33,137 nt of DNA. Origin: Acetobacteraceae bacterium. Lineage in GTDB: Bacteria > Pseudomonadota > Alphaproteobacteria > Acetobacterales > Acetobacteraceae. Position numbers and translations under genes: made by a program. Shown in pieces: positions 7,754-33,030 of this stretch. How positions within the stretch are numbered: the stretch's first letter is position 1; each line of letters opens with the position of its first letter. The notes below the pieces were generated by a model that saw only the letters and a program-made list of their open reading frames with translations, did no database searches and was not told where the DNA came from. The DNA is taken from positions 1 to 33,137 of the forward strand of contig JADLHF010000117.1 in NCBI GenBank assembly GCA_020848935.1. The letters are read 5' to 3'.

Positions 7754-8002
7754 ATGCTCGAACTCCGCCCGTGCTGCGAATGCTGCGGCGCCAACCTGCC
7801 GCCCGACAGCCGCGATGCCCGGATGTGCTCCTTCGAATGCACCTTCTGCGCCGCCTGCACCGACGGCGTGCTCCGGGGCCGATGCCCCAACTGCGGCGGC
7901 GAACTGCTGCGCCGGCCGATCCGCCCGGCCGACAAGCTGGCGAAGTTTCCCGCCAGTACCACGCGCAAGGTCAAGCCGACGGGCTGCGTGGCTGTTCAGT
8001 AA
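7754..8002 (+). CDS. DUF1272 small zinc-binding protein
   Basis: An 82-residue Cys-rich protein. The N-terminal LELRPCCECCGANLPPDS and the following ARMCSFECTFCAAC and CPNCGGEL match DUF1272, whose cysteines form zinc-knuckle-like sites; function is unknown. It lies eight bases after the nitronate monooxygenase stop behind a GAGAGG-type ribosome site and is the last gene of this plus-strand run. Its stop codon abuts an AT-rich palindromic module. Confidence 0.9.
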   Translation: MLELRPCCECCGANLPPDSRDARMCSFECTFCAACTDGVLRGRCPNCGGELLRRPIRPADKLAKFPASTTRKVKPTGCVAVQ

Positions 8003-8098
8003 GAAAGCTTGTTCTTTTTTGAAAAAAAGAACCAAAAAACTTCTGATAAAAAGTCTTTTTGCTTCTTTTTCTTCAGAAAAAGAAGACCTTCCTTCTCA
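8003..8098. repeat. AT-rich palindromic module, copy 1
   Basis: Two AT hairpins in strongly GC-rich surroundings. Hairpin B has arms GTTCTTTTT (8011-8019) and AAAAAGAAC (8024-8032) with loop TGAA; hairpin A has arms CTTCTTTTTC (8062-8071) and GAAAAAGAAG (8076-8085) with loop TTCA. Between them the tails CAAAAAACTT and AAGTCTTTTTG face each other and can pair. It lies between converging genes (DUF1272 and FkbM), and the FkbM stop codon is in the loop of hairpin A. Confidence 0.85.
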
Positions 8099-8816
8099 TT
8101 TCCGCTTCCTGCTCCGCCGGGACAAACACGAAGATGAACACATACGGGTCCGATGCCGCGAAACTCGCCGGTGACGGCGACGCCACCTGCATCACGGCGG
8201 CATCGAACCCCGCCACCGGATGCCATGCCCCGTCCAGCGCATAGAATCCGCGATACCCCAGCCCCGCCAGGAATGCCGGCACCGCACGCGTGCTGCCCAT
8301 CCGATGCCGTTCCTCGATCTCCACCGTCAGCACCGGCATGCAGCGCCGCAGCGTCGCCTCCGCCCCGCGCAGCACCTCCTCCTCCGCCCCCTCGGCATCC
8401 ACCTTCATCGCGGTGACATCCGCAAGCCCCAGCGAATCCAGCGTCACCACCTCCACCTCCCAGCGCAGCACCCGCTCCACCCGAGGATCGGCGGCCGCGA
8501 TGGCGTCGTAATCCTTGGCCACCGACGCCCACTGCTCCTGCGCCACCCCGCCCACCACCGGCACCGCCAGTGAAAGACGGCCTGGACCGGCCCCCAGCGC
8601 CTGCGCCCGCAGCTCGACATGCCCCGGCACCACCCCGCCATGCGCCGCCCGCACCGCCGCCCCCAGCCGGACGAAGGCCGGCGGCAGCGGCTCGAACGCC
8701 ACCACCCGCACCCCCTCCAGCCCGGCCAGTGGCACGGTCAGCGCCCCGTCATGCGCGCCCACGTCGACGATGGTGCCGGGCCGGTGCAGCGCCCGCAGGA
8801 ACGCAAGCTCGTCCAT
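8073..8816 (-). CDS. FkbM family methyltransferase
   Basis: SAM-dependent methyltransferase of the FkbM type, acting on an unknown hydroxyl-bearing substrate, often a sugar or lipid. In the 247-residue product the SAM-binding motif is IVDVGAHDGALTVPLA, followed by VVAFEPLPP, and the family's KVDAEGAEEEVLRG motif is present. The start is the ATG beginning MDELAFLRALH, 13 bases after the CinA-like gene stop, consistent with a two-gene minus-strand operon. The last residues (RRKVFFF) are encoded by the palindromic module, so the C-terminus may have been replaced or extended by that element. Confidence 0.86.
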   Translation of the reverse strand: MDELAFLRALHRPGTIVDVGAHDGALTVPLAGLEGVRVVAFEPLPPAFVRLGAAVRAAHGGVVPGHVELRAQALGAGPGRLSLAVPVVGGVAQEQWASVAKDYDAIAAADPRVERVLRWEVEVVTLDSLGLADVTAMKVDAEGAEEEVLRGAEATLRRCMPVLTVEIEERHRMGSTRAVPAFLAGLGYRGFYALDGAWHPVAGFDAAVMQVASPSPASFAASDPYVFIFVFVPAEQEAEMRRKVFFF

Positions 8817-8829
8817 CAGCGCCGGCCTC

Positions 8830-9312
8830 TCATCCGGCCAACGCCGCCTCGAACACCTCCAGCCCCTTGGCCGCGAACAGCCACATGTTCTCCACCCGGT
8901 CATCCACCCCGGTATCGATCTGCAGCGACAGCGGCATCGGCCCCGCCACCGCAAAGCACGCCCGCCCCGCGGGATGGCCATAGCGGTTGCCGCCCGGCCC
9001 CGCCGCCCCGGTCTCCGCCAGCCCCCAAACGGTGCCGAACCGCGCCTGCACCGCCCCGGCCATCAACGCGGCCATCCCCACCGAATTCGGCGCCACGCTG
9101 GCCAGATCCTTGTCCGACAACTCCAGCAACAGGTTGCGCGACAGCCGCGTGTACACCACCACCCCGCCCTGGTAGTACGCCGAGGCCCCCGCCACCGCCA
9201 GCAGCGCCGCCGAGATCAACCCCCCGGCCGAGCTTTCCGCCACCGCCACCTTGTCCCCGCGCCGCTTCAACAGCGCGCCCACCCGCTCCGCCACCGGCAT
9301 CAACCTGTCCAT
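8830..9312 (-). CDS. CinA C-terminal domain protein (nicotinamide-nucleotide amidase type)
   Basis: A 160-residue stand-alone CinA_C/PncC domain. Family members deamidate nicotinamide mononucleotide to nicotinate mononucleotide in NAD recycling. Visible family elements are KVAVAESSAGGLISAALLAVAGAS near the N-terminus, YYQGGVVVYTRLSR, and the WGLAETGAAGPGGN substrate loop. The fused N-terminal MoCF domain of full CinA is absent. In place of the more common SCTGG the motif reads SSAGG, so activity is not assured. The start is divergent from the MBL-fold gene across a 155-base region. Confidence 0.88.
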   Translation of the reverse strand: MDRLMPVAERVGALLKRRGDKVAVAESSAGGLISAALLAVAGASAYYQGGVVVYTRLSRNLLLELSDKDLASVAPNSVGMAALMAGAVQARFGTVWGLAETGAAGPGGNRYGHPAGRACFAVAGPMPLSLQIDTGVDDRVENMWLFAAKGLEVFEAALAG

Positions 9313-9467
9313 CGTCCAGTCCCCTCATGGTTCCGCGCGGCACCGGCCACTGCGCCAGCGGCCCCGCCGCCGCAGCAGCGGCGAACGCTCCGAACCGACC
9401 CGCGCGCCAGCCCCAACCTTATGCGGTTCCGTGCTACATGCGAACCGCAGCCAGGGAGTGGAAAATC
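9313..9467. promoter_or_regulatory. Divergent intergenic region with inverted repeat
   Basis: Separates the minus-strand CinA-like gene from the plus-strand MBL-fold gene and should carry both promoters. It contains a perfect 7-base inverted repeat, GCGGTTC (9423-9429) and GAACCGC (9442-9448), about 20-45 bases ahead of the MBL start, overlapping CTACAT, a possible -10 box. The ribosome site AGGGAG precedes ATG 9468. An operator function is inference. Confidence 0.4.
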
Positions 9468-10415
9468 ATGTCCGGATTCGCCTCCACCAACGACATGGCG
9501 GACAAGCAGGTCTCGTTCGACGAGCTCGGCGATGGCCTCTACGCCTACACCGCCGAGGGCGACCCCAATTCCGGCATCATCGTCGGCCCCGACGGCGTGG
9601 TCGTGGTCGATGCCCAGGCCACCCCGAAGATGGCCGCCGAGGTCCAGGCCCGCATCGCCACCGTCACCGACACGCCGGTCCGCCAGGTCGTACTCTCCCA
9701 CTACCACGCCGTGCGCGTCCTCGGCGCCACCGGATACCCCGCCCACAGCGTCATCTGCTCCGACATCTGCCGCGCCATGATCGCCGAACGCGGCCAACAG
9801 GACATGGACAGCGAGATCGGCCGCTTCCCCCGCCTGTTCCGCGGCAAGGAGAGCATCCCCGGCCTCACCTGGCCCACCCACACCTTCCACGGCCGCATGA
9901 CCCTCTGGCTCGGCGAGCGTGAGGCCCAGATCATCCATATCGGCCGCGCCCACACCGCCGGCGACACCGTCGTCTGGCTGCCCAAGGAGAAGGTCCTGTT
10001 CGCCGGCGACACCGTCGAATTCGGCGCCACCCCCTATTGCGGCGACGCCCACTTCACCGACTGGCCCGACACCATCCACAAGCTCCGCCAGCTCGGCGCC
10101 GAGAAAATGGTCCCCGGCCGCGGCCGCGCCCTGATGAACGCCGCCGAGGTGAAGGAGGCGCTCGACGGCACCCAGGCCTTCACCAGCACCCTCTTCGCCC
10201 TGGTCCGCGCCGGTGTCGCCCGCGGCGACGACCTGCGTAGCATCTACCAGGAAGCCGTGGACAGGATGCGCCCGGAATTCGGCCACTGGGTGATCTTCGA
10301 CCACTGCATGCCCTTCAACGTCAGCCGCGCCTTCGACGAAGCCCAGGGCATCGATATCCCCCGCATCTGGACCGCCGAACGCGATATCGAGATGTGGCGC
10401 ACGTTGGAGAAGTGA
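9468..10415 (+). CDS. Metallo-beta-lactamase-fold protein with an incomplete metal site
   Basis: A 315-residue MBL-fold hydrolase-like protein without a signal peptide. The fold markers are clear: NSGIIVGPDGVVVVDAQ, SHYH, GRAHTAGDTVVWLP and VLFAGDTVE. The first-metal ligands His78, His80 and His162 and the bridging Asp181 are present, but the usual Asp-His after HxH is Val82-Arg83, and the last His (normally in PGHG) is Arg218 in VPGRGR. It therefore seems able to hold at most one metal. The C-terminal 90 residues are helical. It is followed by a palindromic module and then the FAD monooxygenase; the substrate is unknown. Confidence 0.85.
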   Translation: MSGFASTNDMADKQVSFDELGDGLYAYTAEGDPNSGIIVGPDGVVVVDAQATPKMAAEVQARIATVTDTPVRQVVLSHYHAVRVLGATGYPAHSVICSDICRAMIAERGQQDMDSEIGRFPRLFRGKESIPGLTWPTHTFHGRMTLWLGEREAQIIHIGRAHTAGDTVVWLPKEKVLFAGDTVEFGATPYCGDAHFTDWPDTIHKLRQLGAEKMVPGRGRALMNAAEVKEALDGTQAFTSTLFALVRAGVARGDDLRSIYQEAVDRMRPEFGHWVIFDHCMPFNVSRAFDEAQGIDIPRIWTAERDIEMWRTLEK

Positions 10416-10558
10416 CGAGGTAGAAAGAAGTTCTTTTTTGAAAAAAAGAACCAAAAAACTTTCGTTCCTTGGCACCGTACCTGTATCTCCGCCGGCGGCA
10501 AATTAACGAAAATCTTTTTACCTTTTTTCTTCAGAAAAAGAAGGCCTTCCTTCCTATC
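10416..10558. repeat. AT-rich palindromic module, copy 2
   Basis: Hairpin B (GTTC arm beginning at 10430, GAAC ending at 10451) is followed by CAAAAAACTTT, a GC-rich spacer of about 60 bases, then a decayed hairpin A (10521-10544) whose left arm has lost two bases. The right arm and the GGCCTTCCTTCC flank are intact. It lies downstream of the MBL gene and upstream of the co-directional FAD monooxygenase, with hairpin B on the side of the upstream gene. Confidence 0.8.
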
Positions 10559-10568
10559 CGGGAACCCG

Positions 10569-12119
10569 ATGCCCCACCAGCCCCCCCGCTACCCCTTCAT
10601 CCCCCCCAACGACCCCGGCGCCCGCCACCCCATCGTCGTGGTCGGCGGCGGCATGGTCGGCCTCACCGCGGCGCTCGATCTCGCCCGCCACGGCCAGCCC
10701 GTGGTCCTGCTCGACGACGACGACACCGTCAGCATCGGGAGCCGCGCCATCTGCCACGCCAAGCGCAGTCTCGAAATCTTCGCCCGCCTCGGCATCGGCC
10801 AGCGCCTCCTGGCAAAAGGCGTCACCTGGAACACCGGGCGCGTCTTCGCCGGCGACAGGCAGGTCTTTGTCTTCGATCTGCTGGCGGAGCCCGGCCACCA
10901 GTTCCCCGCCTTCATCAACCTCCAGCAATACCACCTGGAGGAAATCCTGGTCGAAGCCTGCCGCGAAGCCGGTGTCGATCTGCGCTGGTCCTCGCGCGTC
11001 GTCGCCGCCCAGGCGTATCGCGACCACGTCACCCTCGCCATCGAAACCCCCCAGGGCCGCACCACCCTGCACGCCGACTGGCTCCTCGCCGCCGACGGCG
11101 CCCGCAGCGCCGTTCGCGAAGCCATGGGCCTCGATTTCGTCGGCAAGATCTTCCGCGACCGCTTCCTCATCGCCGACGTGGTGATGAAGGCGCCGTTCCC
11201 CGCCGAACGCCGGTTCTGGTTCGATCCGCCCTTCCACCAGGGCGGCTCCGTCCTGCTGCACCGCCAGGCCGACGACGTCTGGCGAATCGATTTCCAGCTC
11301 GGCTGGGACGCCGATCCCGAAACCGAAAAAGACCCCGAACGGGTCCGCGCCCGCGTCGCCGCCATGCTCGGCCCGGATGTCCGGTTCGAGCTCGAATGGG
11401 TCAGCGTCTACACCTTCCGCTGCCGCCGCCTGGAGAAGTTCCGCCACGGCCGCATCTTCTTCCTCGGCGACGCCGCCCACCAGGTCAGCCCCTTCGGTGC
11501 CCGCGGCGGCAATGGCGGCATCCAGGACGCCGACAACCTGTGCTGGAAACTCGACGCCGTGCTGCGCGGCACCGCGCCCGACTCCCTGCTCGACAGCTAC
11601 GACGCCGAGCGCATCCCCGCCGCGGACGAGAACATCCTCGCCTCCACCCGCAGCACCGACTTCATCACCCCGAAGAACGAGGCCGCCCACGCCTACCGCG
11701 ACGCCGTACTGTCCCTCGCCCGCCACCACGCATTCGCCCGTCCCCTGGTCAATTCCGGCCGCCTCTCCCGCCCCGCCATCCTCGCCGCCTCGCCGCTGAA
11801 CACACCCGACGACGCGCCGTGGAACGGCGGCCTCCCCCCCGGCACCCCCGCCGCCGACGCTCCGCTCGAAGATGGCTGGCTGCTGGATCGCCTCGGCCCC
11901 GGCTTCACCGCCCTGGTCTTCGGCACCTCCCCCACCGCGCTGCCCGAAGGCATCACCGCGCTCCCCCTTCCCGCCGAAGGCCAGGCCGCCACCCGCTACG
12001 CCGCAACCGCCGGCGACGTCGTGCTGCTCCGCCCCGACCAGCACGTCGCCGCCCGCTGGCATCGCACCGACCCCGCCGCCATCGCCGCCGCCCGCCGGAG
12101 AGCCCTCGGCCATGCCTGA
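10569..12119 (+). CDS. FAD-dependent aromatic-ring-type monooxygenase (PheA/TfdB family)
   Basis: Class A flavin monooxygenase related to 3-(3-hydroxyphenyl)propionate and phenol hydroxylases, which insert one oxygen using NAD(P)H. The 516-residue product has the dinucleotide-binding IVVVGGGMVGLTAALDLA near residue 22, the DG motif WLLAADGARSAVREAMG, and the GD motif FFLGDAAHQVSPFGARGGN. A C-terminal thioredoxin-like tail is short. The DUF2783 gene overlaps its 3' end, and homogentisate dioxygenase lies about 2 kb downstream, so a role in aromatic catabolism is likely; the exact substrate is not readable from sequence. Confidence 0.9.
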   Translation: MPHQPPRYPFIPPNDPGARHPIVVVGGGMVGLTAALDLARHGQPVVLLDDDDTVSIGSRAICHAKRSLEIFARLGIGQRLLAKGVTWNTGRVFAGDRQVFVFDLLAEPGHQFPAFINLQQYHLEEILVEACREAGVDLRWSSRVVAAQAYRDHVTLAIETPQGRTTLHADWLLAADGARSAVREAMGLDFVGKIFRDRFLIADVVMKAPFPAERRFWFDPPFHQGGSVLLHRQADDVWRIDFQLGWDADPETEKDPERVRARVAAMLGPDVRFELEWVSVYTFRCRRLEKFRHGRIFFLGDAAHQVSPFGARGGNGGIQDADNLCWKLDAVLRGTAPDSLLDSYDAERIPAADENILASTRSTDFITPKNEAAHAYRDAVLSLARHHAFARPLVNSGRLSRPAILAASPLNTPDDAPWNGGLPPGTPAADAPLEDGWLLDRLGPGFTALVFGTSPTALPEGITALPLPAEGQAATRYAATAGDVVLLRPDQHVAARWHRTDPAAIAAARRRALGHA

Positions 12120-12306
12120 CCTGACCCTCACCGCCAACCTCGAAGACCCCGACGCCGTCTTCGAAGCCCTGATGGACGCCCACCGCGACCTCGACCCCGC
12201 CGCCTCCCGCCGCCTCGACGCCCGCCTGGTGCTGCTGCTCGCCAACCACATCGGCAGCGCCGCCATCGTGCGCCAAGCCATCACCCTGGCCCGGACCAGC
12301 GGATGA
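12112..12306 (+). CDS. DUF2783 small protein
   Basis: A 64-residue mostly helical protein overlapping the monooxygenase gene by 8 bases. The pattern DPDAVFEALMDAHRDLD followed by RLDARLVLLLANHIG matches DUF2783, a small family that I know mainly as a partner gene of MhpA-like flavin monooxygenases. Function is unknown. The overlap implies coupled translation and a stoichiometric relation to the monooxygenase. The gene ends the operon. Confidence 0.85.
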   Translation: MPDLTLTANLEDPDAVFEALMDAHRDLDPAASRRLDARLVLLLANHIGSAAIVRQAITLARTSG

Positions 12307-12363
12307 CCACGTGGCACCCGACGGCCGACTGCTTGCCGCGCCTACACCTCCGGGCCGTGGCAT

Positions 12364-12566: not shown

Positions 12567-12783
12567 ACCAATCCTTGAAAGCAATGACCCATGAATCCAG
12601 GAAAGGGCAGGGCTTTGCCCCGCACCCACCAGAGGCCGAGGGCCTTTGGCATCCCATTGCTTTCCAGATGGATGAGGTCCAGGGGCTCGGCCCGTCGCGC
12701 GAAGGCGCGGGCCGGACCAGGCGGGTCTGGGCGGAGCCCAGGGCCTCCTGACCCAATCGATCCTTCATTTCGAGGATTGGTAT
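12565..12783. mobile_element. 219-bp element with terminal inverted repeats (MITE-like)
   Basis: The ends are inverted copies of ATACCAATCCTYGAAA (12565-12580 and 12768-12783, 15 of 16 matching). The interior has no credible gene. It is rich in short palindromes such as GGGCTTTGCCC and a GGCCCG...CGGGCC hairpin around 12687-12713, of the type seen in non-coding repeats of GC-rich alphaproteobacteria. The left end coincides with the truncation of the fucose-synthase remnant, which suggests insertion or rearrangement there. No target-site duplication is obvious. Calling it mobile is inference. Confidence 0.55.
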
Positions 12784-14051: not shown

Positions 14052-15350
14052 ATGGACAAGGCGACAGGCACCGCCACCGCCGAGCGCCTGCAATCCGGCT
14101 TCGGCAACGAATTCGCCACCGAGGCCATCCCCGGCGCCCTGCCACAGGGCCGCAACTCCCCGCAGCGCCCCGCCCACGGCCTTTACACCGAGCAGCTCTC
14201 CGGCACGCCCTTCACCGTGCCCCGCACCGAGGCGCGCCGCACCTGGCTCTACCGCCTCCGCCCCTCGGCCAACCACCCGCCCTACCGCCGCATCGACCAC
14301 GCCAGCCTCGCCGGTCCCCTCGCACCCCCCAACCCCAACCGCCTGCGCTGGAGCCCGCTGCCCATCCCCGCGGCCCCCACCGATTTCCTCGCCGGCCTCA
14401 CCACCATGTTCGCCACCGCCGAGGGCGCCTTCGACCACGGCGTCAGCGTCCACCTCTACGCCGCCAACCGCTCGATGGAGCGCATCTTCTTCACCGCCGA
14501 CGGCGAACTGCTGATCGTGCCGGAACAGGGCGCGCTGCTGCTGGAAACCGAACTCGGCCGCCTGCGCGTCGCCCCCGGCGAGATCGCCGTCATCCCCCGC
14601 GGCATCCGCTTCCGCGTCGTCCTCCCCGCCGGCACCGCCCGCGGCTACCTCGCCGAGAACCACGGCGCGGTGCTGCGCCTGCCCGATCTCGGCCCGATCG
14701 GCGCCAACGGCCTCGCCAACCCGCGCGACTTCCTCACCCCCACCGCCTGGTTCGAACAGCGCGACGAGCCGGTCGAGGTGGTTCAGAAATTCCTCGGAAC
14801 CCTGTGGACCACCACGCTCGGCCACTCCCCGCTCGACGTCGTCGCCTGGCACGGCACCCTGGCGCCCTACAAATACGACCTCGCAACTTTCAACGCGGTC
14901 GGCTCGATCGGATTCGACCACCCGGACCCGTCGATCTTCACGGTATTGACCGCCCCCACCGCCACCCCCGGCCGCGCCAACCTCGATTTCGTCATCTTCC
15001 CGCCGCGCTGGCTGGTCGCCGAGGATACGTTCCGCCCGCCCTGGTTCCACCGCAACGTGATGAACGAGTGCATGGGCCTGATCACCGGCGTCTATGACGG
15101 CAAGGCCGAAGGCTTCCTCCCCGGCGGCTTCAGCCTGCACCCGATGATGTCCGCCCACGGCCCCGACGCCGCCACCACCGAACGCGCCGAGGCCGCCACG
15201 CTGGCCCCGCACAAGATCGACGGCACGCTCGCCTTCATGTTCGAAACCGCTGCCGTGCTGCGCCCCACCGCCCTCGCCATGGCCAGCGCGCAACTGCAAT
15301 CCGGCTACGACACCGTCTGGAACGGCCTGGGCAAACGGTTCGCGCCATGA
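14052..15350 (+). CDS. hmgA: Homogentisate 1,2-dioxygenase
   Basis: Non-haem Fe(II) ring-cleaving enzyme that opens homogentisate to maleylacetoacetate in tyrosine and phenylalanine breakdown. The 432-residue length is typical. The N-terminus has the family pattern [21 protein letters not shown] and [11 protein letters not shown]. The iron ligands are His333 and Glu339 in [12 protein letters not shown] and His369 in [11 protein letters not shown] strong AGGAGG site lies six bases before the ATG. The usual partners (maleylacetoacetate isomerase, fumarylacetoacetase) are not adjacent, and transcription ends at a palindromic module. Confidence 0.97.
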
Positions 15351-15357: not shown

Positions 15358-15499
15358 CGCGGGAAGGAAGGCCTTCTTTTTCTGAAGAAAAAGAAGCAAA
15401 AAGACTTCATTCACTTTCTTGTGGTACGCCGGTCCTACGCCAGGATCAACGAATGAAAGTTTTTTGGTTCTTTTTTTCAAAAAAGAACATTCTTCCTTC
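15358..15499. repeat. AT-rich palindromic module, copy 3 (reversed)
   Basis: Same module read from the other strand: hairpin A arms at 15373-15382 and 15387-15396 (loop TGAA), tail CAAAAAGACTTCATTC, a spacer of about 35 bases, then GAATGAAAGTTTTTTG and hairpin B (GTTC at 15467-15470, GAAC at 15485-15488, loop TTCA). Both outer flanks carry GGAAGG/CCTTCC. The spacer ends, ACTTCATTC and GAATGAAAGT, can pair. It separates converging hmgA and the amidohydrolase gene. Confidence 0.85.
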
Positions 15500-15510
15500 C
15501 TTCGCTATGC

Positions 15511-16374
15511 TCACTTCACTTTCAACCCGCCATGCCACCAATGCGCGAACGGGTTGCTGTGAATGATGCTGTCGATCGTCGCATCGGCAATCCGCGGCAG
15601 GTTCGTCCCCTCCACCAGCCGGTTGATCGTCCGCAGCCCCGCCAGCGACTCGCCAACCTCGGCATAGGGAAAATCCGTCCCCCAGAACACCTTGTTGCGG
15701 TCGTGGATGGTATATTCCTGGGCCGCCATCAGGATGTTGTAGAACTGCCACGGCCGGTAGTGCAGGGCGGAGACCTCGCAGTAGACATTCGGCTGCTTGC
15801 GCGCGATCACCACGCATTCCTCGTACCAGGGGTGCCCCATATGGGCCATCACCATCTTCAGGTCGGGGTAGCGCAGCGCCACCTCCTCCACATGGATCGG
15901 CCGCCCATACTCGGCCGGCGCATTGCGGGCATAGGTGGTGCCCATGTGCATGGTCAGCGGCAGGTTGTTCTTGACCATGAACCGGTAGAACGGGTCCAGC
16001 CGAGGGTCCTGCAAGGAAACCCCGTTGTAGATCGGCCCGAACTTCACCCCCACCAGCTTCAGGTCCTGGACCGCATGCTCCAGCAATACCATCGCATCCG
16101 CCCGGCGTGGATCGAGGGCCGCGAACCCCACGAACTTGTCGGGATACTTCGCCACCGCCGCCGCCGTCACCTCGTCATCGCCGTCCACTCCGGTGGAGTC
16201 CGCGTAGCGCAGCGAAAAGATGATGGCGCGATCGACATCCTTCATTGCGGCATACAGCGTGTCTGCATCCGCCCGGTAGCCGATCGCCCCCGGCCGGGCA
16301 AACTGCGTCTGCTCGCGCATCAGCGGCGTGACATGCCTGTCCTCGAAGATGTTGACGTGGCAATCCACGATCAT
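15511..16374 (-). CDS. Amidohydrolase family (TIM-barrel) protein
   Basis: A 287-residue member of the amidohydrolase-2 family, which includes decarboxylases and lactonases of aromatic-acid pathways. The N-terminal MIVDCHVNIFED has only the second His of the usual HxH. Later metal and catalytic signatures are MVMAHMGHPWYEE and the C-terminal WGTDFPYAEV with its conserved Asp. The product is unassigned: a decarboxylase of a hydroxylated or keto acid, or a lactone hydrolase. Its ATG overlaps the RraA-like gene stop (TGATG), so the two probably act in one pathway. Confidence 0.85.
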   Translation of the reverse strand: MIVDCHVNIFEDRHVTPLMREQTQFARPGAIGYRADADTLYAAMKDVDRAIIFSLRYADSTGVDGDDEVTAAAVAKYPDKFVGFAALDPRRADAMVLLEHAVQDLKLVGVKFGPIYNGVSLQDPRLDPFYRFMVKNNLPLTMHMGTTYARNAPAEYGRPIHVEEVALRYPDLKMVMAHMGHPWYEECVVIARKQPNVYCEVSALHYRPWQFYNILMAAQEYTIHDRNKVFWGTDFPYAEVGESLAGLRTINRLVEGTNLPRIADATIDSIIHSNPFAHWWHGGLKVK

Positions 16375-17027
16375 CACAGCACCCCGTACTTGGCGAACAC
16401 GTCCCCCAGCTTCATCCCGGCCTGCAAATCCGCCAGCGTGGAATGCTCGCCCTTCAGCTTCTCGAACGCCGCCTCGATCACCTTCTTCTCGATCGCCTTC
16501 GGCACCACCACCACCCCATCGGCGTCGCCGAACACCAGGTCCCCGCTGGAAACCTTCACCCCGGCCACCTCCACCGGCACATCCAGCGCGACGATCTTGC
16601 CGCGCCCCTTGCTGTCCAGCGGCCCGATCCCGCCGGCGAACACCGGAAACCCCATCGCCCGGATCGCGCGGATATCGCGCGTCAGCCCGTCCATCAGCGC
16701 GCCGGCCGCCCCGCGCGCCTTGGACGCCGTGCTCAGCAACTCTCCCCACGGCGCAATCCGTCCACTGGCGCCACAGGCGAACACCGGGATCTCCCCCGGC
16801 AACAGGCTGTCGATCAGCTTGATCTCCAGCTCATACGGATTGTCCCCCTCGGCCACATGATACTGGTCGGCGAACAACGCCGTGCGCGCCCGCCCCACCA
16901 TCACCAGGCTCTCATCCAGCGGCCGCACCCGCGGCGGCAGCGCCTGGTTCCAGGTGCCCAGCGCATCCATCACATCGGACAGCAGCGCAGCGAACAGCTT
17001 TTCCCGTATCATGGCCAGGTCGGTCAT
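16374..17027 (-). CDS. RraA-family protein (possible 4-hydroxy-4-methyl-2-oxoglutarate aldolase)
   Basis: A 217-residue RraA/DlpA-fold protein. The family motif lies in the middle: APWGELLSTASKARGAAGAL followed by MDGLTRDIRAIRAMGFPVFA, containing the GELL loop and the Arg-Asp pair that binds metal and pyruvate in aldolases of protocatechuate and gallate catabolism. The C-terminus GDLVFGDADGVVVVPK is also typical. RNase-E-regulator RraA proteins are shorter (about 160 residues), and the coupling to an amidohydrolase favours a catabolic aldolase or decarboxylase. The exact substrate is not certain. Confidence 0.85.
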   Translation of the reverse strand: MTDLAMIREKLFAALLSDVMDALGTWNQALPPRVRPLDESLVMVGRARTALFADQYHVAEGDNPYELEIKLIDSLLPGEIPVFACGASGRIAPWGELLSTASKARGAAGALMDGLTRDIRAIRAMGFPVFAGGIGPLDSKGRGKIVALDVPVEVAGVKVSSGDLVFGDADGVVVVPKAIEKKVIEAAFEKLKGEHSTLADLQAGMKLGDVFAKYGVL

Positions 17028-20187: not shown

Positions 20188-20320
20188 CAAGAAAGTAGGA
20201 TCTTCTTTTTCTGAAGAAAAAGAAGCAAAAAGACTTTCTGCCGATCACCCTGGCATAGCCTGCCGAACGAACAAAAGTTTTTTGGTTCTTTTTTTTCAAA
20301 AAAGAACACTTCCTTCGCCA
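20188..20320. repeat. AT-rich palindromic module, copy 4 (reversed)
   Basis: Hairpin A (20202-20211 with 20216-20225, loop TGAA), tail CAAAAAGACTTT, a GC-rich spacer of about 40 bases, AAAAGTTTTTTG, then hairpin B (GTTC at 20285-20288, GAAC at 20304-20307). It lies downstream of the minus-strand MFS gene and upstream of prpE, with hairpin B on the side of the gene it follows. Confidence 0.85.
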
Positions 20321-20381: not shown

Positions 20382-22064
20382 CTATTTCGGCGTATCGGCG
20401 AAGATATCCCGATCCTTGGTCTCCGGCAGGAAGATCATCCCGATCACGAAGGTCCCCGCGGCAATCACCACGGGATACCACAGCCCGGAATAGATGTTCC
20501 CGGTCGCCGCCACGATGGCAAAGGCGGTCGGCGGCAGGAACCCGCCGAACCAGCCATTGCCGATATGGTACGGCAGCGACATGCCGGAGTAGCGGATGCG
20601 GGTGGGGAACAACTCCACCAGCAGCGCCGCCATCGGGCCATAGACCATGGTCACCAGGATCACCAGCACCGTCAGGATGGCGACCGTCATCACCATGTTG
20701 GTCTTGGCCGGGTCCGCCTTGGCCGGATACCCCGCCGCGCGGATCGCATCGGTGGCCGCCTTCTCGAACGCGGCGTTCTTCGCCGCCGCCTCCGCCCCCG
20801 CCGCCTTGCGATCGAACGCGGCGACCTCGGTGCCGCCGATGATGATCTTCGCCACCGACCCCGCCGGCGCCTCGATGTTGCTGTAGTTCACCGCATTGCG
20901 CGCCAGGAACGACTTGGCGATGTCGCAGGACGAGGTGAAGCTCGCCGTGCCCGTCGGGTTGAACTGGAACGAGCATTCCGCCGGGTTCGCCACCACCGTC
21001 ACCGGCGACGTCTCCAGCGCAATCTCCAGCGTCGGGTTCACCGCGTTGGTCAGCGCCTGGAACAGCGGGAAATACAGGATCGCGCCCAGCAGGCAGCCGC
21101 CGAGAATGATCGGCTTGCGGCCGACCTTGTCCGACAGCCAGCCGAAGAAGATGAAGAATGGCGTGCCGATCGCCAGCGACCCGGCAATCGCGTAGTTCGC
21201 CGTCACCGGGTCCATCCTCAGCGTCTGGGTCAGGAAGAACAGCGCATAGAACTGCCCGCCGTACCAGATCACCGCCTGGCCCGCCGTGCCGCCGAACAGC
21301 GCGGCCAGCGCGATCTTGGCGTTCTCCCACCGCCCGAACGCCTCGGCCAGCGGGGCGGTCGAATGCGTGCCTTCCGCCTTCATCCTGGTGAAGGCCGGCG
21401 ACTCCTCAAGCTGCATCCGGATCCAGATCGAGATGCCCAGCAGCAGGATCGACAGCAGGAACGGCACCCGCCAGCCCCACGCGGCGAAAGCCTCCGGCGA
21501 CATGGTCAGCCGCAGCGCCAGGATCACCAGCAGCGACATGAACAGCCCCACCGTGGCGGTGGTCTGGATCCACGAGGTGTAGAACCCGCGCCGCCCATGC
21601 GGCGAATGCTCGGCCACATAGGTCGCCGCCCCGCCGTATTCGCCGCCCAGCGCCAAACCCTGCAACAGCCGGAAGGCAACGAAGAGGATCGGCGAAAGGA
21701 TGCCCAGTGTTCCGTAGCCTGGCAAAAGCCCAACCAGGAAGGTGGCCAGGCCCATGATGGTCATGGTCACCAGGAAGGTGCGCTTGCGCCCCACCAGGTC
21801 GCCCAGCCGGCCGAAGAACAGCGCGCCGAACGGGCGCACCGCGAAGCCGGCGGCAAAGCCCAGCAGGGTGAAGATGAACCCCGCCGTCGGGTTCACGCCG
21901 GAGAAGAAGTTCGCCGCGATGTTCGCCGCCAGCGAGCCGGCCAGATAGAAGTCGTACCACTCGAAAACCGTACCCAGCGACGAGGCCACGATGACCTTGC
22001 GCTCCTCCCTGCTCATCGGCCGCACCAGCGCGTCCGAACCCGGCAGATATTCCGTCGTCGCCAT
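20382..22064 (-). CDS. MFS transporter, metabolite:H+ symporter type, with large extra loop
   Basis: Inner-membrane proton-coupled importer of the MHS (ProP/KgtP/ShiA-like) family. The 560-residue product has the family signatures SSLGTVFEWYDFYLAG in helix 1, FGRLGDLVGRKRTF after helix 2, RLLQGLALGGEYGGAA and a second GWLSDKVGRKP. Typical members have about 430-450 residues. Here an insert of roughly 110 residues (about 345-456) lies between the helix at YFPLFQAL and the helix beginning MVMTVAILTV, containing Cys364 and Cys380 and an Ala/Lys-rich helix. I chose the ATG behind GGGAGGAA. The substrate is unknown, probably an organic acid or betaine. Confidence 0.92.
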   Translation of the reverse strand: MATTEYLPGSDALVRPMSREERKVIVASSLGTVFEWYDFYLAGSLAANIAANFFSGVNPTAGFIFTLLGFAAGFAVRPFGALFFGRLGDLVGRKRTFLVTMTIMGLATFLVGLLPGYGTLGILSPILFVAFRLLQGLALGGEYGGAATYVAEHSPHGRRGFYTSWIQTTATVGLFMSLLVILALRLTMSPEAFAAWGWRVPFLLSILLLGISIWIRMQLEESPAFTRMKAEGTHSTAPLAEAFGRWENAKIALAALFGGTAGQAVIWYGGQFYALFFLTQTLRMDPVTANYAIAGSLAIGTPFFIFFGWLSDKVGRKPIILGGCLLGAILYFPLFQALTNAVNPTLEIALETSPVTVVANPAECSFQFNPTGTASFTSSCDIAKSFLARNAVNYSNIEAPAGSVAKIIIGGTEVAAFDRKAAGAEAAAKNAAFEKAATDAIRAAGYPAKADPAKTNMVMTVAILTVLVILVTMVYGPMAALLVELFPTRIRYSGMSLPYHIGNGWFGGFLPPTAFAIVAATGNIYSGLWYPVVIAAGTFVIGMIFLPETKDRDIFADTPK

Positions 22065-26926: not shown

Positions 26927-27673
26927 ATGGCCGCGCATTGCCCCGCCTGCATGCCGCGCCGCGCGGCACTCGCCCTCGGCCTGGCCACCCTGGCCACCCC
27001 CGCCGCCGCGCTCGACGCCATCGAACCCCGCTTCCGCCGCAGCCCCGCGCCCGACGGACGCCGCCGCGTCGCCCTCACCCTGGATGCCTGCAACGGCGGC
27101 TTCGACCGCCGCATCGCCGACGCCGTCGTCGCCCACCACGCCCGCGCCACCATCTTCCTCACCGCCGACTGGATCCGCCAGAACCCCGCCGGCCTCGCCT
27201 TCCTCCTTGCCCACAAGGAGAATTTCCGCTTCGAGAACCACGGCCAGCACCACCTCCCCGCCGTGCTCGGCACCGGCACCATCTGGGGCCTGCGCATCGC
27301 CGGCACGCTGGACGCCGTCCGCCGCGAGGTCACCGAGGGTGCCGCCGCCATCCTCGCCGCCACCGGCACCACGCCGCACTGGTACCGCGCCGCCGCCGCC
27401 CGCTACAGCCCCGCCGCCATCCCCGCGATCACCCGCCTGGGCTTCGCCATCGCCGCCTTCACCCTGAACGGCGACGCAGGCGCCTCGCTCCCCGCCCACA
27501 CCGTCGCCGCCCGCGCCAGCGCCGCCCGCGACGGCGACATCCTGATCGGCCACATCAACCAGCCCCACCGCCCCAGCGGCGAAGGCTGGGCCCGCGCCAT
27601 CGCCACCCTCGCCGGGTCCGGAGTCATCTGGTCGGACCTAGACGCGATGCGTCCGATACTTATGTCCCCTTAA
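26927..27673 (+). CDS. Polysaccharide deacetylase-like (NodB fold) exported protein
   Basis: A 248-residue protein whose N-terminus (PRRAALALGLATLATPAAA) looks like a signal peptide; an ATG eight codons into the reading frame (MPRRAAL) may be the true start. The NodB-type motifs are VALTLDACNGGFD in place of TFDDGP, FENHGQHH giving HxxxH, YRAAAARYSP and the late DILIGHINQPH. The second Asp of motif 1 is Ala, a substitution seen in some subfamilies, so catalysis is uncertain. It probably acts on a cell-envelope glycan. Four bases separate it from DUF805. It ends at a palindromic module. Confidence 0.85.
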   Translation: MAAHCPACMPRRAALALGLATLATPAAALDAIEPRFRRSPAPDGRRRVALTLDACNGGFDRRIADAVVAHHARATIFLTADWIRQNPAGLAFLLAHKENFRFENHGQHHLPAVLGTGTIWGLRIAGTLDAVRREVTEGAAAILAATGTTPHWYRAAAARYSPAAIPAITRLGFAIAAFTLNGDAGASLPAHTVAARASAARDGDILIGHINQPHRPSGEGWARAIATLAGSGVIWSDLDAMRPILMSP

Positions 27674-27755
27674 TGAATGAAAGTCTTTTGGCTCTTTTTT
27701 CCAAAAAAGAACAAGCACTTCTTCTTGAAAAAAACATAAGAACTTTCATCCACCC
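27674..27755. repeat. AT-rich palindromic module, copy 5 (degenerate)
   Basis: Starts ATGAAAGTCTTTTGG, then a damaged hairpin (CTCTTTTTT and AAAAAAGAA, 27692-27711), then CTTCTTCTTGAAAAAAACAT and AAGAACTTTCATCC. The outer ends ATGAAAGT and ACTTTCAT are inverted repeats. Overall it resembles a rearranged copy of the intact modules, directly after the deacetylase stop. Confidence 0.7.
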
Positions 27756-27825: not shown

Positions 27826-27963
27826 ATGGATTTCATCGAACAGCTCTTCGGCATCTCCCCCGACGGCGGCGACGGGTCGCTGGAGGTTCTCTGGATCGTC
27901 GCCATGATCGCCGTCGCCGGCGTGTTCGTCTGGCGCCGGCGTGCCGTCCGCCAGAAAAGCTGA
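27826..27963 (+). CDS. Small single-span membrane protein
   Basis: A 45-residue protein: MDFIEQLFGISPDGGDGSLE, a hydrophobic span of about 20 residues (VLWIVAMIAVAGVFVW), and a basic tail RRRAVRQKS, suggesting the tail faces the cytoplasm. A strong AAGGAGG site eight bases before the ATG supports translation. No family assigned; I recall similar short proteins in related genomes but cannot name one. It lies between two palindromic modules. Confidence 0.7.
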   Translation: MDFIEQLFGISPDGGDGSLEVLWIVAMIAVAGVFVWRRRAVRQKS

Positions 27964-27965: not shown

Positions 27966-28097
27966 GGAAAGGCAAGGAAAGATGTTCTTTTTTGGAAAAA
28001 AGAACCAAAAAACTTTTATTCACTTAGTTTAGCTTAAATGAATAAAAGTCTTTTTGCTTCTTTTTCTTCAGAAAAAGAAGACCTTCCTTCCTACGCC
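27966..28097. repeat. AT-rich palindromic module, copy 6 (best preserved)
   Basis: Hairpin B (GTTCTTTTTT 27984-27993, AAAAAAGAAC 27996-28005), tail CAAAAAACTTTTATTCA, a 16-base centre, TGAATAAAAGTCTTTTTG, and hairpin A (28057-28066 with 28071-28080, loop TTCA). The centre is a perfect 11-base inverted repeat, ACTTTTATTCA (28012-28022) and TGAATAAAAGT (28039-28049), followed on each strand by T-rich tracts, as in a bidirectional intrinsic terminator. It lies between converging genes. Confidence 0.9.
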
Positions 28098-28723
28098 TTC
28101 CTCAGCTGGAACAGCGCCTGCTCGCCAAACAGATTGGCCATCGCGGGAAACCGCCGCCACGGCGAACGCTGCCCGTCATCGTCCACCGCCAGCCAGCGCT
28201 CCACCACGTACCCCTCCTGCTCCGCCAGCGCGAAGAAGTCGCGGATCGTGCAGGGATGGATGTTCGGCGTCTCGTACCACGGCCGGTCCCAAACCTTGGT
28301 GTTCGGCATCCGCCCGGTCCACAGCAGCTTCCAGCGCAACTGCCAGTGGCCGAAATTCGGAAAGCTCACCAGCGCATGCCGCCCGATCCGCAGCATCTGG
28401 CGCAGCACCTCGCGCGGCCGCTCCACCGCCTGCAAGGTCCGGCTCAACACCACGTAATCAAAGGAATCATCGGGATACTGCGCCAGGTCGGTGTCGGCAT
28501 CGCCATGCATCACCGGCAGCCCGTGCGCGATCGCCCGCGTCACCTCGGCCATGTCGATATTGATCCCGCGCGCATCGCAGCCATGGGTGCGGTACAGATG
28601 GTCGATCAGCGTCCCGTCGCCGCAGCCGATATCCAGCACCCGCGCCCCCGGCGCCACCATCCCGGCAATCAGCCGCAGGTCGAGGCGCATGTTCTTGGCG
28701 ACATAGCGCACCGCCTCGCTCAC
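28091..28723 (-). CDS. metW: Methionine biosynthesis protein MetW
   Basis: A 210-residue class I SAM-methyltransferase-fold protein that works with MetX in methionine synthesis. Recognisable parts are [17 protein letters not shown], the acidic [37 protein letters not shown] and [15 protein letters not shown], all typical of MetW. The GTG start overlaps the metX stop as GTGA, so translation is coupled. The family partners MetX physically or functionally, often when MetX is a succinyltransferase. The gene ends at the edge of a palindromic module. Confidence 0.94.
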
Positions 28724-29874
28724 GCCGCCAGCCCCGCATGCTCGGCGCACCCGCCCAGGAACCCCGCCAGCGTGCGATGGAAATCCGGCTCGTCCAGCAG
28801 GAACGCATCATGCCCCTTGTCGGACGCGATCTCCACGAAGCTCACATTCGCCCCCGCCCCGTTCAGCGCGCGGGCCACCGCCCGGCTCTCGGCGGTCGGA
28901 TACAGCCAGTCGCTGGTGAAGCTGATCAGGCAGAACCGCGTCCGCGTCCCGGCAAACGCCGCCGACAGGTTGCCGTCATACTCGGCCGCCAGGTCGAACC
29001 AGTCGCAGGCCCGCGTGATCGTCAGGTACGAATTGGCGTCGAACCGCCGCACGAAGGTACTGCCCTGATGCTGCAGATAGCTCTCCACCTCGAACATGTC
29101 GTTGAACACCGCCAGCGACCCCCCGCGCATCCGCCGCCCGAACTTGCGCGTCAGCGCCTCCTCGGACAGGTACGTGATGTGCGCCACCATCCGCGCCACC
29201 GCCAGGCCCCGCGCCGGAATCGCCCCGCTCTGCCAGTACCGCCCCTGCTGCCAGTCGGCATCGGCGAAGATCGACTGCCGCCCCACCTCGTTGAACGCGA
29301 TGTTCTGCGCCGAGTGATACGGCGCCGTGGCGATCGGCACCGCCGCGAACACGCTCTCCGGATAGCTCGCCGCCCATTGCAGCACCTGCATCCCGCCCAT
29401 CGACCCGCCGACCACGGCAAACAGCCGCGCGATGCCCAGCTGCTCCACCAGCCGCTTCTGCGCCCGCACCATGTCGCGGATCGTCACCGGCGGAAAATCC
29501 GTCCCCCACAGCACCGCCGGATCGTCGTCGCGCCCCGCCTGCGTCATCACCGTCCGCGGCCCGGTCGAGCCCATGCACCCGCCCAGCACGTTGGACGAGA
29601 TGACGAAATACCGGTCGGTGTCGATCGGCAGGCCCGGCCCCACCACCACGTCCCACCAGCCGCCCTTGCCGGTCACCGGATGGCGCTCGGCCACATACTG
29701 GTCGCCGGTCAGCGCATGGCAGATCAGGATCGCATTGCTGCGCGCCGCATTCAGCGTGCCATAGGTGCGATAGGCAATCGCCACCCGCGACAGGCTGCTG
29801 CCGCAATCCAGCATCAACGGCCCGTCCAGGACAAGGTGCTGATGTTCAACCGAGGGAAGCGGGGTCTGGTCCAT
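28720..29874 (-). CDS. metX: Homoserine O-acyltransferase MetX
   Basis: Alpha/beta-hydrolase that acylates homoserine with acetyl- or succinyl-CoA, the first step of methionine synthesis. The 384-residue product carries [44 protein letters not shown], the nucleophile elbow GGSMGG (Ser158), and the catalytic His355 in DKGHDAF. The acetyl or succinyl choice cannot be read securely; association with MetW in proteobacteria often goes with succinyl use. The start MDQTPL has no strong ribosome site, and an upstream ATG at 29898 in the same frame is an alternative. Confidence 0.94.
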
Positions 29875-29893
29875 TTCGGACCAGCATATGCGG

Positions 29894-29955
29894 CCCATGC
29901 CGCCCGCGCGCAACCATGCCGCCCGCAACCATGCCGCCCGCAACCATGCCGCCCG
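29894..29955. repeat. 15-bp tandem repeat in the metX/chorismate mutase promoter region
   Basis: Three perfect tandem copies of CAACCATGCCGCCCG (29911-29955) are preceded by a partial copy (CCATGCCGCCCG ending at 29906). They occupy the middle of the 173-base divergent region. Each unit contains ATG, and read as protein would give the repeat MPPAT. Copy number may vary between strains. Confidence 0.8.
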
Positions 29956-30047
29956 TCACCGGCGCGGCTTTGCACGGCGGCGGGGTTCCGCTAGGACTGC
30001 CGCACCACGCGCCCGCACCCCGAACGAACCTGGCAAATCCCCGCACG

Positions 30048-30977
30048 ATGACGTCCCCGGCCTCCTCTTCGCCCGCGCCGGCCGCCCCAGCGGAAGGGAC
30101 CGCCCCCGCCGCGCCCGCTCCCGCCGCGCCCGCTCCCGCCGCCCCCGCCCGCACCTTGGCCGCTCTGCGCGCCGAACTCGACACCATCGACAACGCCATC
30201 CACGACCTGCTCCAGCAGCGCGCCGCCGTCGTCGAACAGGTCGCAACCCAGGGCGGCAAGGGCGGCGTCGCCATCCGCCCGGGCCGCGAGGCCGACATCA
30301 TCCGCCGCCTCCTCGCCCGCCACGCCGGCCACCTGCCCGCCCGCCTGATCGTGCGATGGTGGCGCGAACTCTTCGCCGCCACCACCAGCATGCAGGGCAG
30401 CTATGTGGTCGCCGTCTGCGAAACCGAACCCGGCAGCCCCTTCGTCCAGTCCGCCCGCGAACATTTCGGCGCCCTCACCCCGCTGCGCGTCCACCCCTCG
30501 CCGTCCCAGGCGATCGCCGAGGTCAGCGCCGGCACCGCCATCTCCGCCGTCCTGCCGCTGCCCGCCGAGGGCGACACCACCGCGTGGTGGACCGCCCTGC
30601 TGCACCGCGACGACCCGCGCATCCACGTCATCGCCCGCCTGCCGTTCTGGGCCCCCCGGCCCGAGGGCGCGCCACAGGTCCAGGCCCTGGTGGTCGCCGC
30701 CGTGGCGCCGGACGCCAGCGCGCGGGACCGCTCGCTGATCGGCCTGGAACTGCACGAGGACGCCAGCCGCGCCCGCCTCACCGCGGCACTCACCGCCGCC
30801 GGCCTGGCACCCCTGGCCACCATCCTGCGCCGCGACCCCGCCGCCACCCTCGCTTTGGTCGAAGTCGAAGGCCTGGTCGGCGAAACCGATCCCCGCCTGG
30901 CCCGGCTGGACGGCGTCGCCCGCCCGCCGGTCGTGCTCGGCGCCTACGCCGTACCCGTCGAGGGAGACTCCGCATGA
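30048..30977 (+). CDS. Chorismate mutase with a prephenate-dehydratase-like C-terminal region
   Basis: Converts chorismate to prephenate for phenylalanine and tyrosine. After an Ala/Pro-rich N-terminus ([15 protein letters not shown]), an AroQ-type helical domain spans about residues 37-115: [34 protein letters not shown] and [14 protein letters not shown]. The remaining 190 residues resemble the split domain of bifunctional P-proteins ([20 protein letters not shown]) and end with an ACT-like stretch ([16 protein letters not shown]). The dehydratase TRF motif is not visible, so this part may bind an effector instead. I chose the ATG giving MTSPASSS; upstream ATGs lie in the tandem repeat. It overlaps the next gene as ATGA. 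Confidence 0.82.
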
Positions 30978-32092
30978 CCGACTCGCAGAACCGCGCACCC
31001 GCCGCGCCCCAACCCCGCGCCGCCGTGATGGCCATCCACGCCTACGTCGCCGGCGAGGCCAAGCTCCCCGGCGTCAACCGCATCATCAAGCTGTCCTCCA
31101 ACGAGGGCGCCTTCGGCCCACCCCCCGCCGCCATCGCCGCCTACACCAAGGTCGCCGCCGAAATCCACCGCTACCCCGACGGCGGCAGCACCGCCCTGCG
31201 CCGCGCCATCGGCACCCGCTTCGGCCTCGACCCCGCGCGCATCGTCTGCGGCACCGGCTCGGACGAGCTGATCGGCCTGCTCTGCCACGTCTATGGCGGC
31301 CCAGGCACCGACATCCTGATGTCCATGCACGGCTTCACCATGTACCAGATCGCCGGCACCTTCGCAGGCAGCCGCGTGCTGAAAGTGCCGGAAAAGAACC
31401 TCACCACCGACGTCGATGCCATGCTCGCAGCCGTCACGCCGGAGACGAACATCGTCTTCATCGCCCACCCCAACAACCCCACCGGCTCCCTGCTGCCGCA
31501 ATCCGAGGTCGAACGCCTGCGCGCCGGCCTGCGCCCCGACATCCTGCTGGTGCTCGACTCCGCCTACGCCGAATACGTCGAAGCCGCCGACTACGATGCC
31601 GGCCAGAAACTCGTCGATGCCGCCGAGAACACGGTGATGCTGCGCACCTTCAGCAAGGTCTTCGGCCTCGGCGGCATGCGCGTCGGCTGGGGCTACATGC
31701 CGCCCGCCGTCGCCGACGCGCTGAACCGCGTGCGCGGCGTCTTCAACGTCAACCTCGCAGCCCAGGCCGCGGCCGTCGCCGCCCTGGAAGAACCCGGCTG
31801 GGTCGAACGCTGCCGCGCCCACAACACCGAATGGCGCGCCAGGCTCGCCGCCTCCCTGGCAGCGGTCGGCATCAAGGTCTGGCCCACCGAAGGCAATTTC
31901 CTCCTGGCCGACTTCGCCACCGCCGCCGCCGCCCAGGACGCCGACGCCTTCCTGAAGTCCCGCGGCATCATCGTGCGCGGCATGGCCGCCTACGACCTGC
32001 CGCACTGCCTGCGCATCACGGTTGGAACCGCCGAGGAATGCACCCTGGTCACCGAGGCGCTGACCGCCTTCACGACATCCCCCCATGCCTGA
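30974..32092 (+). CDS. hisC: Histidinol-phosphate/aromatic aminotransferase (class I/II, PLP)
   Basis: A 372-residue HisC-family aminotransferase. Visible features are [15 protein letters not shown] near the N-terminus, [40 protein letters not shown], the Asp/Tyr of [10 protein letters not shown], and the PLP lysine Lys228 in [16 protein letters not shown]. Lying between chorismate mutase and prephenate dehydrogenase, with overlaps of 4 and 8 bases, it probably transaminates aromatic keto acids (or imidazole-acetol phosphate, or both). The hisC symbol reflects family only. Confidence 0.9.
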
Positions 32093-32987
32093 ACCGCTGT
32101 CCCAGCGGCCCCTCTTCAAACGACTGGTGCTCGTCGGCATCGGCCTGATCGGCAGCTCCGTCGCCCGCATCGCCATGGAAAAGCGGGAGATCGCCGCCGA
32201 AGTGGTCGCCACCGCCCGCACCCAGGCCACGCTCGACCGCGTCATGCAGCTCGGCATCGCCGACCGCGCCGAGCTCGATCCCGGCCGCGCCGTCGAGGGC
32301 GCGGACTGCGTCATGCTCTGCGCCCCGGTCGGCGCCTATGCCGCCCTGGCCGAAGCCATCGCCCCGCATTTGGCGCCCGGCTGCATCGTCACCGATGTCG
32401 GCTCCACCAAGCAGAGCGTCATCCGCGACGTCGGCCCGCTGATCCCCGCCGGCGTCCACTTCGTCCCCGCCCACCCCGTCGCCGGCACCGAATACTCCGG
32501 CCCCGATGCCGGCTTCGCCACGCTGTTCCAGGGCCGCTGGTGCCTGCTCACCCCGCCGCCCGGCACCGATGACGCCGCGGTCGAAGCCATCACCGAACTC
32601 TGGCGCCGCTGCGGCTCGATGGTCGAAACCATGGAGCCCGCCCACCACGACCGCGTCCTGGCCATCGTCTCCCACCTGCCGCACCTGATCGCCTTCACCA
32701 TCTGCAACACCGCCGAAGGCCTGGAAGGCGAAAGCCGCCAGGAAGTGCTGAAATTCTCCGCCTCCGGCTTCCGCGACTTCACCCGCATCGCCGCCTCCGA
32801 CCCGGTGATGTGGCGCGATATCTTCCTCAACAACCGCGAAGCCCTGCTGGAAATGCTCGCCCGCTTCATGGAGGACGCCCAAGCCATGGCCCGCGCCGTG
32901 CGCTGGGGGGACCCGGGCTTCATCGAGGACAGCATCGAACGCGGACGGGTGATCCGCCAGAGCCTGATCGAACTCAAGCAGGTTTAA
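32085..32987 (+). CDS. tyrA: Prephenate (cyclohexadienyl) dehydrogenase
   Basis: NAD(P)-dependent oxidative decarboxylation of prephenate or arogenate in tyrosine synthesis. The 300-residue product starts with the Rossmann motif [17 protein letters not shown], then [21 protein letters not shown], and the catalytic His130 in [12 protein letters not shown], with [19 protein letters not shown] in the helical C-terminal dimer domain. It overlaps the aminotransferase gene by eight bases and ends the operon at a palindromic half-module. Cofactor and substrate preference are not determined. Confidence 0.94.
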
Positions 32988-33030
32988 GCAAGCGCTTCTT
33001 TTTGAAAAAAGAAGCAAAAACTTTCATTCA
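32988..33030. repeat. AT-rich palindromic module, copy 7 (half module)
   Basis: One hairpin with arms CTTCTTTT (32995-33002) and AAAAGAAG (33007-33014), loop TGAA, then CAAAAACTTTCATTCACT. It has A-type arms in the position and orientation that hairpin B has elsewhere, right after the tyrA stop; the second hairpin is missing. Confidence 0.8.

Follow-up and report, generated by a model that had tools for sequence, protein, structure and literature searches.

A dispersed paired-hairpin module with a tail-to-arm mirror code, a probable two-way terminator at gene ends of Acetobacteraceae

The window considered here is the whole of contig C117 (JADLHF010000117.1, 33,137 nt) from an Acetobacteraceae genome of 4.6 Mb in 301 contigs (GCA_020848935.1, 95% complete), in which gene ends carry copies of a module built from two A/T-rich hairpins, each followed by a short purine tail. 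The sequence evidence favours the view that this module is a dispersed, sequence-conserved, bidirectional 3′-end element of Acetobacteraceae, most likely a two-way intrinsic terminator made of two triplex-capable hairpins. A first-pass annotation of the window had listed seven AT-rich copies, and all of them were present where it had placed them, each at a gene end. A half-unit profile, built from the window and refined in one round, was applied to the window and to a further 40 contigs of that genome (C1-C40; each whole or cut to its first 20 kb; 495,983 nt), picked without regard to content, giving 529,120 nt altogether.

In each half-unit, a hairpin with a base of 4 bp (usually NTTC/GAAN), n further inner base pairs, and a loop of 2 nt is followed by a single C and then by n nt of purine tail, and a module is composed of two half-units facing each other across a variable spacer. 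The main hairpin types were A (CTTCTTTTTCT-GA-AGAAAAAGAAG), B (GTTCTTTTTT-GA-AAAAAAGAAC), C (CTTCTTTTTGT-GA-ACAAAAAGAAG), and D (CTTCTTTTT-GA-AAAAAGAAG). The profile recovered 135 halves in 83 modules, namely 52 facing pairs and 31 singles, and B was paired with A or C in 44 of the 52 pairs. The left and right tails within a module paired better with each other than with tails of other modules (mean −5.2 vs −4.5 kcal/mol; 202 of 20,000 permutations were as good). Besides these types, three hairpins with TTTCTTT arms lay in a row, 130-138 nt apart, at G000:C238:28096-28387, and these were the only three of that pattern in the host genome.

The most distinctive property of the half-unit is a mirror rule that links the tail to the stem: the sequence of the purine tail follows that of the inner pyrimidine arm in parallel orientation, with T read as A, C as G, and G as A, and its length equals that of the stem minus four. 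In the discovery set, from which 251 of 299 halves were parsed, the length rule fitted 236 of 239 halves with 2-nt loops, and 317 of 330 fitted the mirror rule; among asymmetric arms, the parallel reading fitted 130 of 138 and the antiparallel one 31 of 138, the latter figure being attributed to G-containing arms, which code for an all-A tail. The rule was then confronted with 20 new stretches from 15 genomes (13 new to sampling), taken at hits of a B-half model, where the search for hairpins ignored the tail and 49 of 52 hairpins obeyed the rule exactly; the asymmetric arms among them fitted in parallel in 17 of 18 cases and in antiparallel in none of the 18. When only distinct inner arms were counted, 11 of 12 fitted, whereas 20,000 permutations gave 1.5 on average and 7 at most. 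No such hairpin was found in 280 kb of four family genomes without B-model hits.

Moreover, the rule was used for prediction on new hairpins that the pattern searches displayed minus their tails, the expected tails being fixed in writing before any was read. The arm TTTTCCT was predicted to carry AAAAGGA, and did so in 70 of 72 copies in G211, a genome unsampled before (its congener G303 had been sampled); TTTTCTT carried the predicted AAAAGAA in both copies of G249, and TTTTGGT the predicted A7 in the single copy of G260. Arm types that had been glimpsed earlier behaved similarly, by eye and among the matches listed: TTTCTTT was followed by AAAGAAA in 22 of 24 cases in G260, and arms of the TTTGTTT group by A7 in 25 of 29 (G078), 30 of 33 (G249), and 22 of 24 (G279). 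In the window itself, 11 of 12 halves fitted the rule by eye, the exception being in module 5.

The mirror rule points to the code of an intrastrand triple helix, homopurine mirror repeats being the hallmark of intramolecular triplexes. A U placed against a C-G pair, as would occur with G-containing arms, is tolerated in pyrimidine-motif triplexes. Read outward from the module centre, the strand presents the Hoogsteen block, the pyrimidine arm, and the purine arm, which is class IV in the scheme of PMC4666352, and inward reading gives class II. According to the same paper, pyrimidine-motif intrastrand triplexes occur in RNA and purine-motif ones cannot form in it, so that an RNA triplex would be the outward reading. 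Apart from the 5-nt type, which is below the minimum, the blocks of 5-8 nt and the loops of 5 and 2 nt agree with the range published in PMC4666352, where the three blocks measure 6-15 nt and the loops 1-6 nt.

As for placement, the first-pass annotation had described a dispersed element at transcription ends. The module was counted, and its enrichment at 3′ ends tested, on the 40 contigs, with genes called by a codon model trained on the sample from the host genome (starts approximate). Outside the window, 76 modules were found. Among intergenic gaps of at least 60 nt, a module was held by 22 of 40 convergent, 36 of 126 tandem, and 2 of 63 divergent gaps, a bias far beyond chance (Fisher tests against divergent gaps: 1.3e-9 for convergent, 1.2e-5 for tandem). 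None of the 76 was flanked on each side by more than 40 nt of a predicted gene, the test for lying inside one. Within tandem gaps, 32 of 36 modules were closer to the stop of the gene just ended, the median distances being 7 nt to that stop and 75 nt to the next start. By extrapolation from the 83 modules in 529,120 nt, about 700 copies are expected in the 4.6 Mb. Stop-codon usage also differed beside modules, since TAA and TAG terminated 17 and 24 of the 68 genes with a module at most 12 nt away and 18 and 70 of the 345 other genes (41/68 vs 88/345). Placement followed the same trend in five other genera: 21 modules lay in convergent gaps (28 gaps of at least 60 nt), 41 in tandem gaps (98), and 6 in divergent gaps (41). 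Four of these sets were mostly picked at known hits, the gene calls came from 43-120 kb each, and one set (G119) was poor. The unselected set, G085, yielded one module in 120 kb, and thus not all carriers are module-rich.

The modules also suggest themselves as the suppliers of nearly all gene-end U-tracts in the sample from the host genome. A T-run of at least 5 within 150 nt 3′ of the stop (gaps of at least 60 nt) was present at 85 of 86 gene ends with a module and at 5 of 134 without one. The former figure is unsurprising because these T-runs belong to the module itself; the latter means that other gene ends of this genome almost never carry one. A stem followed by a U-tract was found at 80 of 86 module ends and at 17 of 134 ends without a module, composition-shuffled ends giving about 40 of 86. 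In four other genomes of the family (three without B-model hits and one with four), ordinary GC-stem terminators with T-runs were present at some gene ends.

A mechanism may be proposed that would account for this architecture. The facing tails would pair into a central stem, and on either strand the 3′ arm of this stem would lead into two U-tracts, the first being the complement of the distal tail and the second the first arm of the distal hairpin. The transcript would thus contain, in order, one half (hairpin and A-run), the central stem, the first U-tract, and the second U-tract inside the next hairpin, and RNA polymerase would stop at the U-tracts, either of which fits. Once the distal hairpin was complete, the first U-tract could dock on it. 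The code would be kept because each half, whether as RNA or DNA, forms an intrastrand triple helix built of U.A-U and C+.G-C triads; this helix would cap the transcript end or stall the polymerase. The first-pass annotation had placed the B-type half on the side of the gene just ended in the co-directional copies 2, 4, and 7; this was the case for copies 2 and 4, copy 7 having no B-type half, and the pattern extended to 17 of 21 typed tandem B/A or B/C pairs across the host genome, so that the longer A or C type (7 triads vs 6) would usually be distal. More tentatively, and with the odds against it, many Acetobacteraceae may end their transcripts with this one standard terminator, whose distal half, after transcription, would draw its U-tract into the major groove of the next hairpin to form an RNA triple helix, clamping the RNA 3′ end or pulling the U-tract from the polymerase.

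Known systems offer partial parallels. Bidirectional intrinsic terminators likewise have a shared A-tract, stem, and T-tract on both strands at convergent gene ends, but the module differs from the usual ones in its AT-rich stem, its sequence conservation between copies and genera, and its two extra flanking hairpins. U.A-U major-groove triads are found in telomerase RNA and in elements for nuclear expression (ENEs), which protect RNA 3′ ends; ENEs grip a downstream poly(A) tail, whereas the third strand of the module would be the U-tract just 5′ of the hairpin. A further likeness is with the potential intrastrand triplex (PIT), BoxC, and TM-ECO motifs, described in PMC4666352 as high-copy, intergenic, three-block (pyrimidine, purine, third strand) sequences with short loops and sometimes in inverted pairs. 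TM-ECO is rich in G/C, has blocks of 9 nt, occurs 23 times in E. coli MG1655, and is reported to show neither strand bias nor terminator activity (PMC4666352), whereas the module is A/T-rich, has 5-8 triads, lies at gene ends with U-tracts in an estimated several hundred copies, and covaries in its code across genera; the A/T-rich halves do not match the G/C-rich CCCTCNCCC-type consensus of TM-ECO and PIT. PMC4666352 excludes stems shorter than 8 nt from its comparison of A/T and G/C, and its main text does not mention Acetobacter, Gluconacetobacter, or Acidiphilium. Rfam gave no match at gathering score in the window, and searches of the literature outside subscription papers, exact sequence strings included, yielded no description of the element.

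Several observations weigh against the terminator reading or against its triplex part. C+.G-C triads require protonation, and one written prediction failed: the single TTTGTCT arm, in G078, is followed by A7 and not by AAAAAGA, in a mismatched hairpin whose tail tracks the purine arm. Predicted folds of the lone strand gave one long hairpin, not three, for most intact modules (z −1.3 to −5.8). Such a long hairpin was rejected as the selected structure, although favoured by energy, as 44 of the 52 pairs mix B with A or C, whose arms do not match in length or base, and yet each half is self-complementary; on these grounds we read the half-hairpin as the likely unit of selection. Locus-specific spacer stems were likewise discarded as the main terminator stem, as they outperformed shuffles only slightly (mean z −0.8, from 41 scored pairs of 52). 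The orientation of solitary halves in tandem gaps was evenly split (22 vs 21), contrary to what a device acting purely through the RNA strand would need, and modules were present in two divergent gaps (L029 7993-8124 and L038 4637-4684), where a small gene may have been missed. Moreover, the window genes 5188-6690 and 6687-7745 overlap by ATGA, but their counterparts in G005 and G003 (L072, L074) are separated by a module, at a site where strong termination would deprive the second gene of transcription unless it had its own promoter. Finally, the E. coli PIT motifs are reported in PMC4666352 to have no terminator activity.

The distribution and history of the module are relevant to its interpretation. 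A covariance-model search of the family, which had been suggested together with the first annotation, matched the B-half model, at E ≤ 0.001, in 107 of 299 genomes, spread over 38 of 102 genera; some positive genomes had one or two matches only, and several reached full score. A class-wide draw gave 2 matching genomes in 385, both Acetobacteraceae, and 7 of 80 named loci fetched by protein carried halves. Among named plasmids, two of Pseudoroseomonas cervicalis hold full modules, in one case directly behind a gene of a co-directional pair and in the other between converging genes, and an Acidiphilium multivorum plasmid has one half, overlapping a small annotated hypothetical gene. By one conserved protein, the nearest named records to the host were uncultured metagenome-assembled genomes (MAGs), several titled Rhodospirillales or Acetobacteraceae, followed by isolates such as Limobrevibacterium, Siccirubricoccus, and Belnapia. 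Two MAG records of the same clade (L079, L082; 67-68% GC, 81-84% identity to the window's protein) are titled Asaia bogorensis, a name that may be wrong.

Among three close sister genomes compared pairwise, a module was found at 21 orthologous gene ends in both members and at 4 in one; between the host genome and seven others, 12 were shared and 21 were in one only, the pairs not being independent in either comparison. Modules are therefore mostly stable over short times and variable over longer ones. Of 26 orthologous module pairs with both flanks matching, 3 could not be parsed and were dropped, and the most diverged pair per locus was retained, giving 11 independent loci, in which mismatches amounted to 8/748 in halves (1.1%), 75/451 in spacers (16.6%), and 73/574 in the outer 20 nt; the loci were picked partly by module similarity and profile detection, which biases them towards conserved halves. 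Overall, the first-pass interpretation was partly supported: its dispersed element at transcription ends is well backed by placement, by the near-absence of other gene-end U-tracts, and by the constraint on halves, whereas the uses proposed for it, as a transcription end or mRNA 3′ stabiliser, are putative. The mirror rule, the spread in the family, and the module that relatives have between genes overlapping in the host go beyond that annotation.

These data also bear on an improbable alternative, that of a selfish repeat resembling a miniature inverted-repeat transposable element (MITE) or a repetitive extragenic palindrome (REP), surviving only just after genes and with no termination role, whose halves would be conserved as the ends used for spreading. 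The copies must indeed have been dispersed, their presence differs at 21 of 33 orthologous gene ends between host and relatives, and a decayed, lineage-specific palindrome occupies the spacers of 15 of 49 host modules and 0 of 31 modules in three relative groups, with another in 8 of 18 of the sister group (orthologs included), both palindromes being derived from the same data. Against it, old shared copies have spacers that diverge 15-fold more than their preserved halves, and the modules abut stops and hold nearly the only gene-end U-tracts. As regards a MITE, the halves are inverted, and comparison of a few presence/absence pairs revealed no clean target-site duplication. The Y1 transposase of REP elements (RAYT, REP-associated tyrosine transposase, PF01797) was not found in the 95% complete genome, and RAYT mobilisation was rejected. 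REPs and bacterial interspersed mosaic elements (BIMEs) are, according to PMC3733652, likewise dispersed palindromic extragenic units, often in inverted pairs and mostly near gene ends; unlike them, the module comes without a RAYT gene and, on visual inspection of 50 aligned halves, without a GTAG or CGTC tag, and the same paper describes CGTC repeats as missing in Acetobacteraceae.

Equally improbable is a role at the level of DNA, in which H-DNA or a cruciform at gene ends would absorb supercoiling, block polymerase, or bind a nucleoid protein, with RNA structure being secondary. The mirror code suits H-DNA as well as RNA, the solitary halves have no preferred orientation, and the absence of modules inside genes and their rarity in divergent gaps agree with this proposal, but 5-8 triads are short for H-DNA, and tail covariation together with facing U-tracts is expected of an RNA terminator. 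Much less credible is an alternative fold or switch without triplex, in which the tail would pair antiparallel with the first arm of its hairpin in a shifted register. Several C-containing arms permit such pairing by eye (TTTTTCT with the tail AAAAAGA), but the G-containing arms fail (TTTTTGT with A7, TTTTTTGT with A8, TTTGTTT with A7), as does TTTTCCT with AAAAGGA, found in 70 of 72 copies, and each type would need a different register, so that this fold was already disfavoured. A DNA uptake signal within terminators, as in Neisseria and Haemophilus, can be virtually set aside: uptake terminators of Neisseria and Pasteurellaceae too are described, in PMC1852404, as one repeated, conserved word in a preferred inverted order that forms many terminators of the genome, but uptake words are short (9-12 nt), non-palindromic sequences that are also common inside genes, whereas the halves are self-palindromic hairpins of more than 40 nt with a coupled tail, and none of the 76 sampled modules lay inside a gene.

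In the window, the described build of two halves with inward-facing tails was confirmed in five complete pairs, and the two remaining copies (27672-27755 and 32988-33032) are atypical. Codon-model gene calls agreed with the proposed contexts, placing three copies between converging genes and four behind a single gene. Their position directly downstream of a stop generally held, with two departures: copy 1 contains the stop codon of the leftward gene (8073), and copy 4 sits 69 nt past the stop. In all window modules, the flank that had been described as GGAAGG/CCTTCC is a loose purine tract with a rhythm of about 4 nt, and no fixed terminal repeat. Module 1 (8000-8095) has a B half (+) followed without spacer by an A half (−), between converging genes, and includes the end of gene 8073-8816 (−). 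Module 2 (10422-10554), B then A with a decayed 3′ arm in the A hairpin, separates the co-directional genes 9468-10415 (+) and 10569-12119 (+). Modules 3 and 4 read A then B on the + strand, the former (15362-15500) between hmgA (14052-15350, +) and gene 15511-16377 (−), and the latter (20193-20313) 3′ of gene 20382-22064 (−), with B nearest that gene. Module 6 (27973-28091), B then A, lies between gene 27826-27963 (+) and metW (28091-28723, −), and the 11-bp stem reported at its centre is present. Module 7 (32988-33032, +) is a single half with the short type D hairpin, after gene 32085-32987 (+). Module 5 (27672-27755), after gene 26951-27673 (+), joins a B half (−, 27672-27719) to a decayed one, identified by eye, in back-to-back order with the tails outward. 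This second architecture, in which back-to-back halves form one long palindrome, was also observed at L008 1465-1548 and L013 5965-6047.

Bacterial triplex motifs have so far been catalogued without an agreed role, and the present module provides a high-copy, gene-end, and strongly constrained case, whose covariation code gave a correct written prediction in a previously unsampled genome. If the triple-helix interpretation is true, it would represent a natural RNA triplex with covariation support across many genera. For the organism itself, a GC-rich host apparently draws nearly all of its gene-end U-tracts from one repeated part, which is relevant to genome annotation and may offer a genetic tool.

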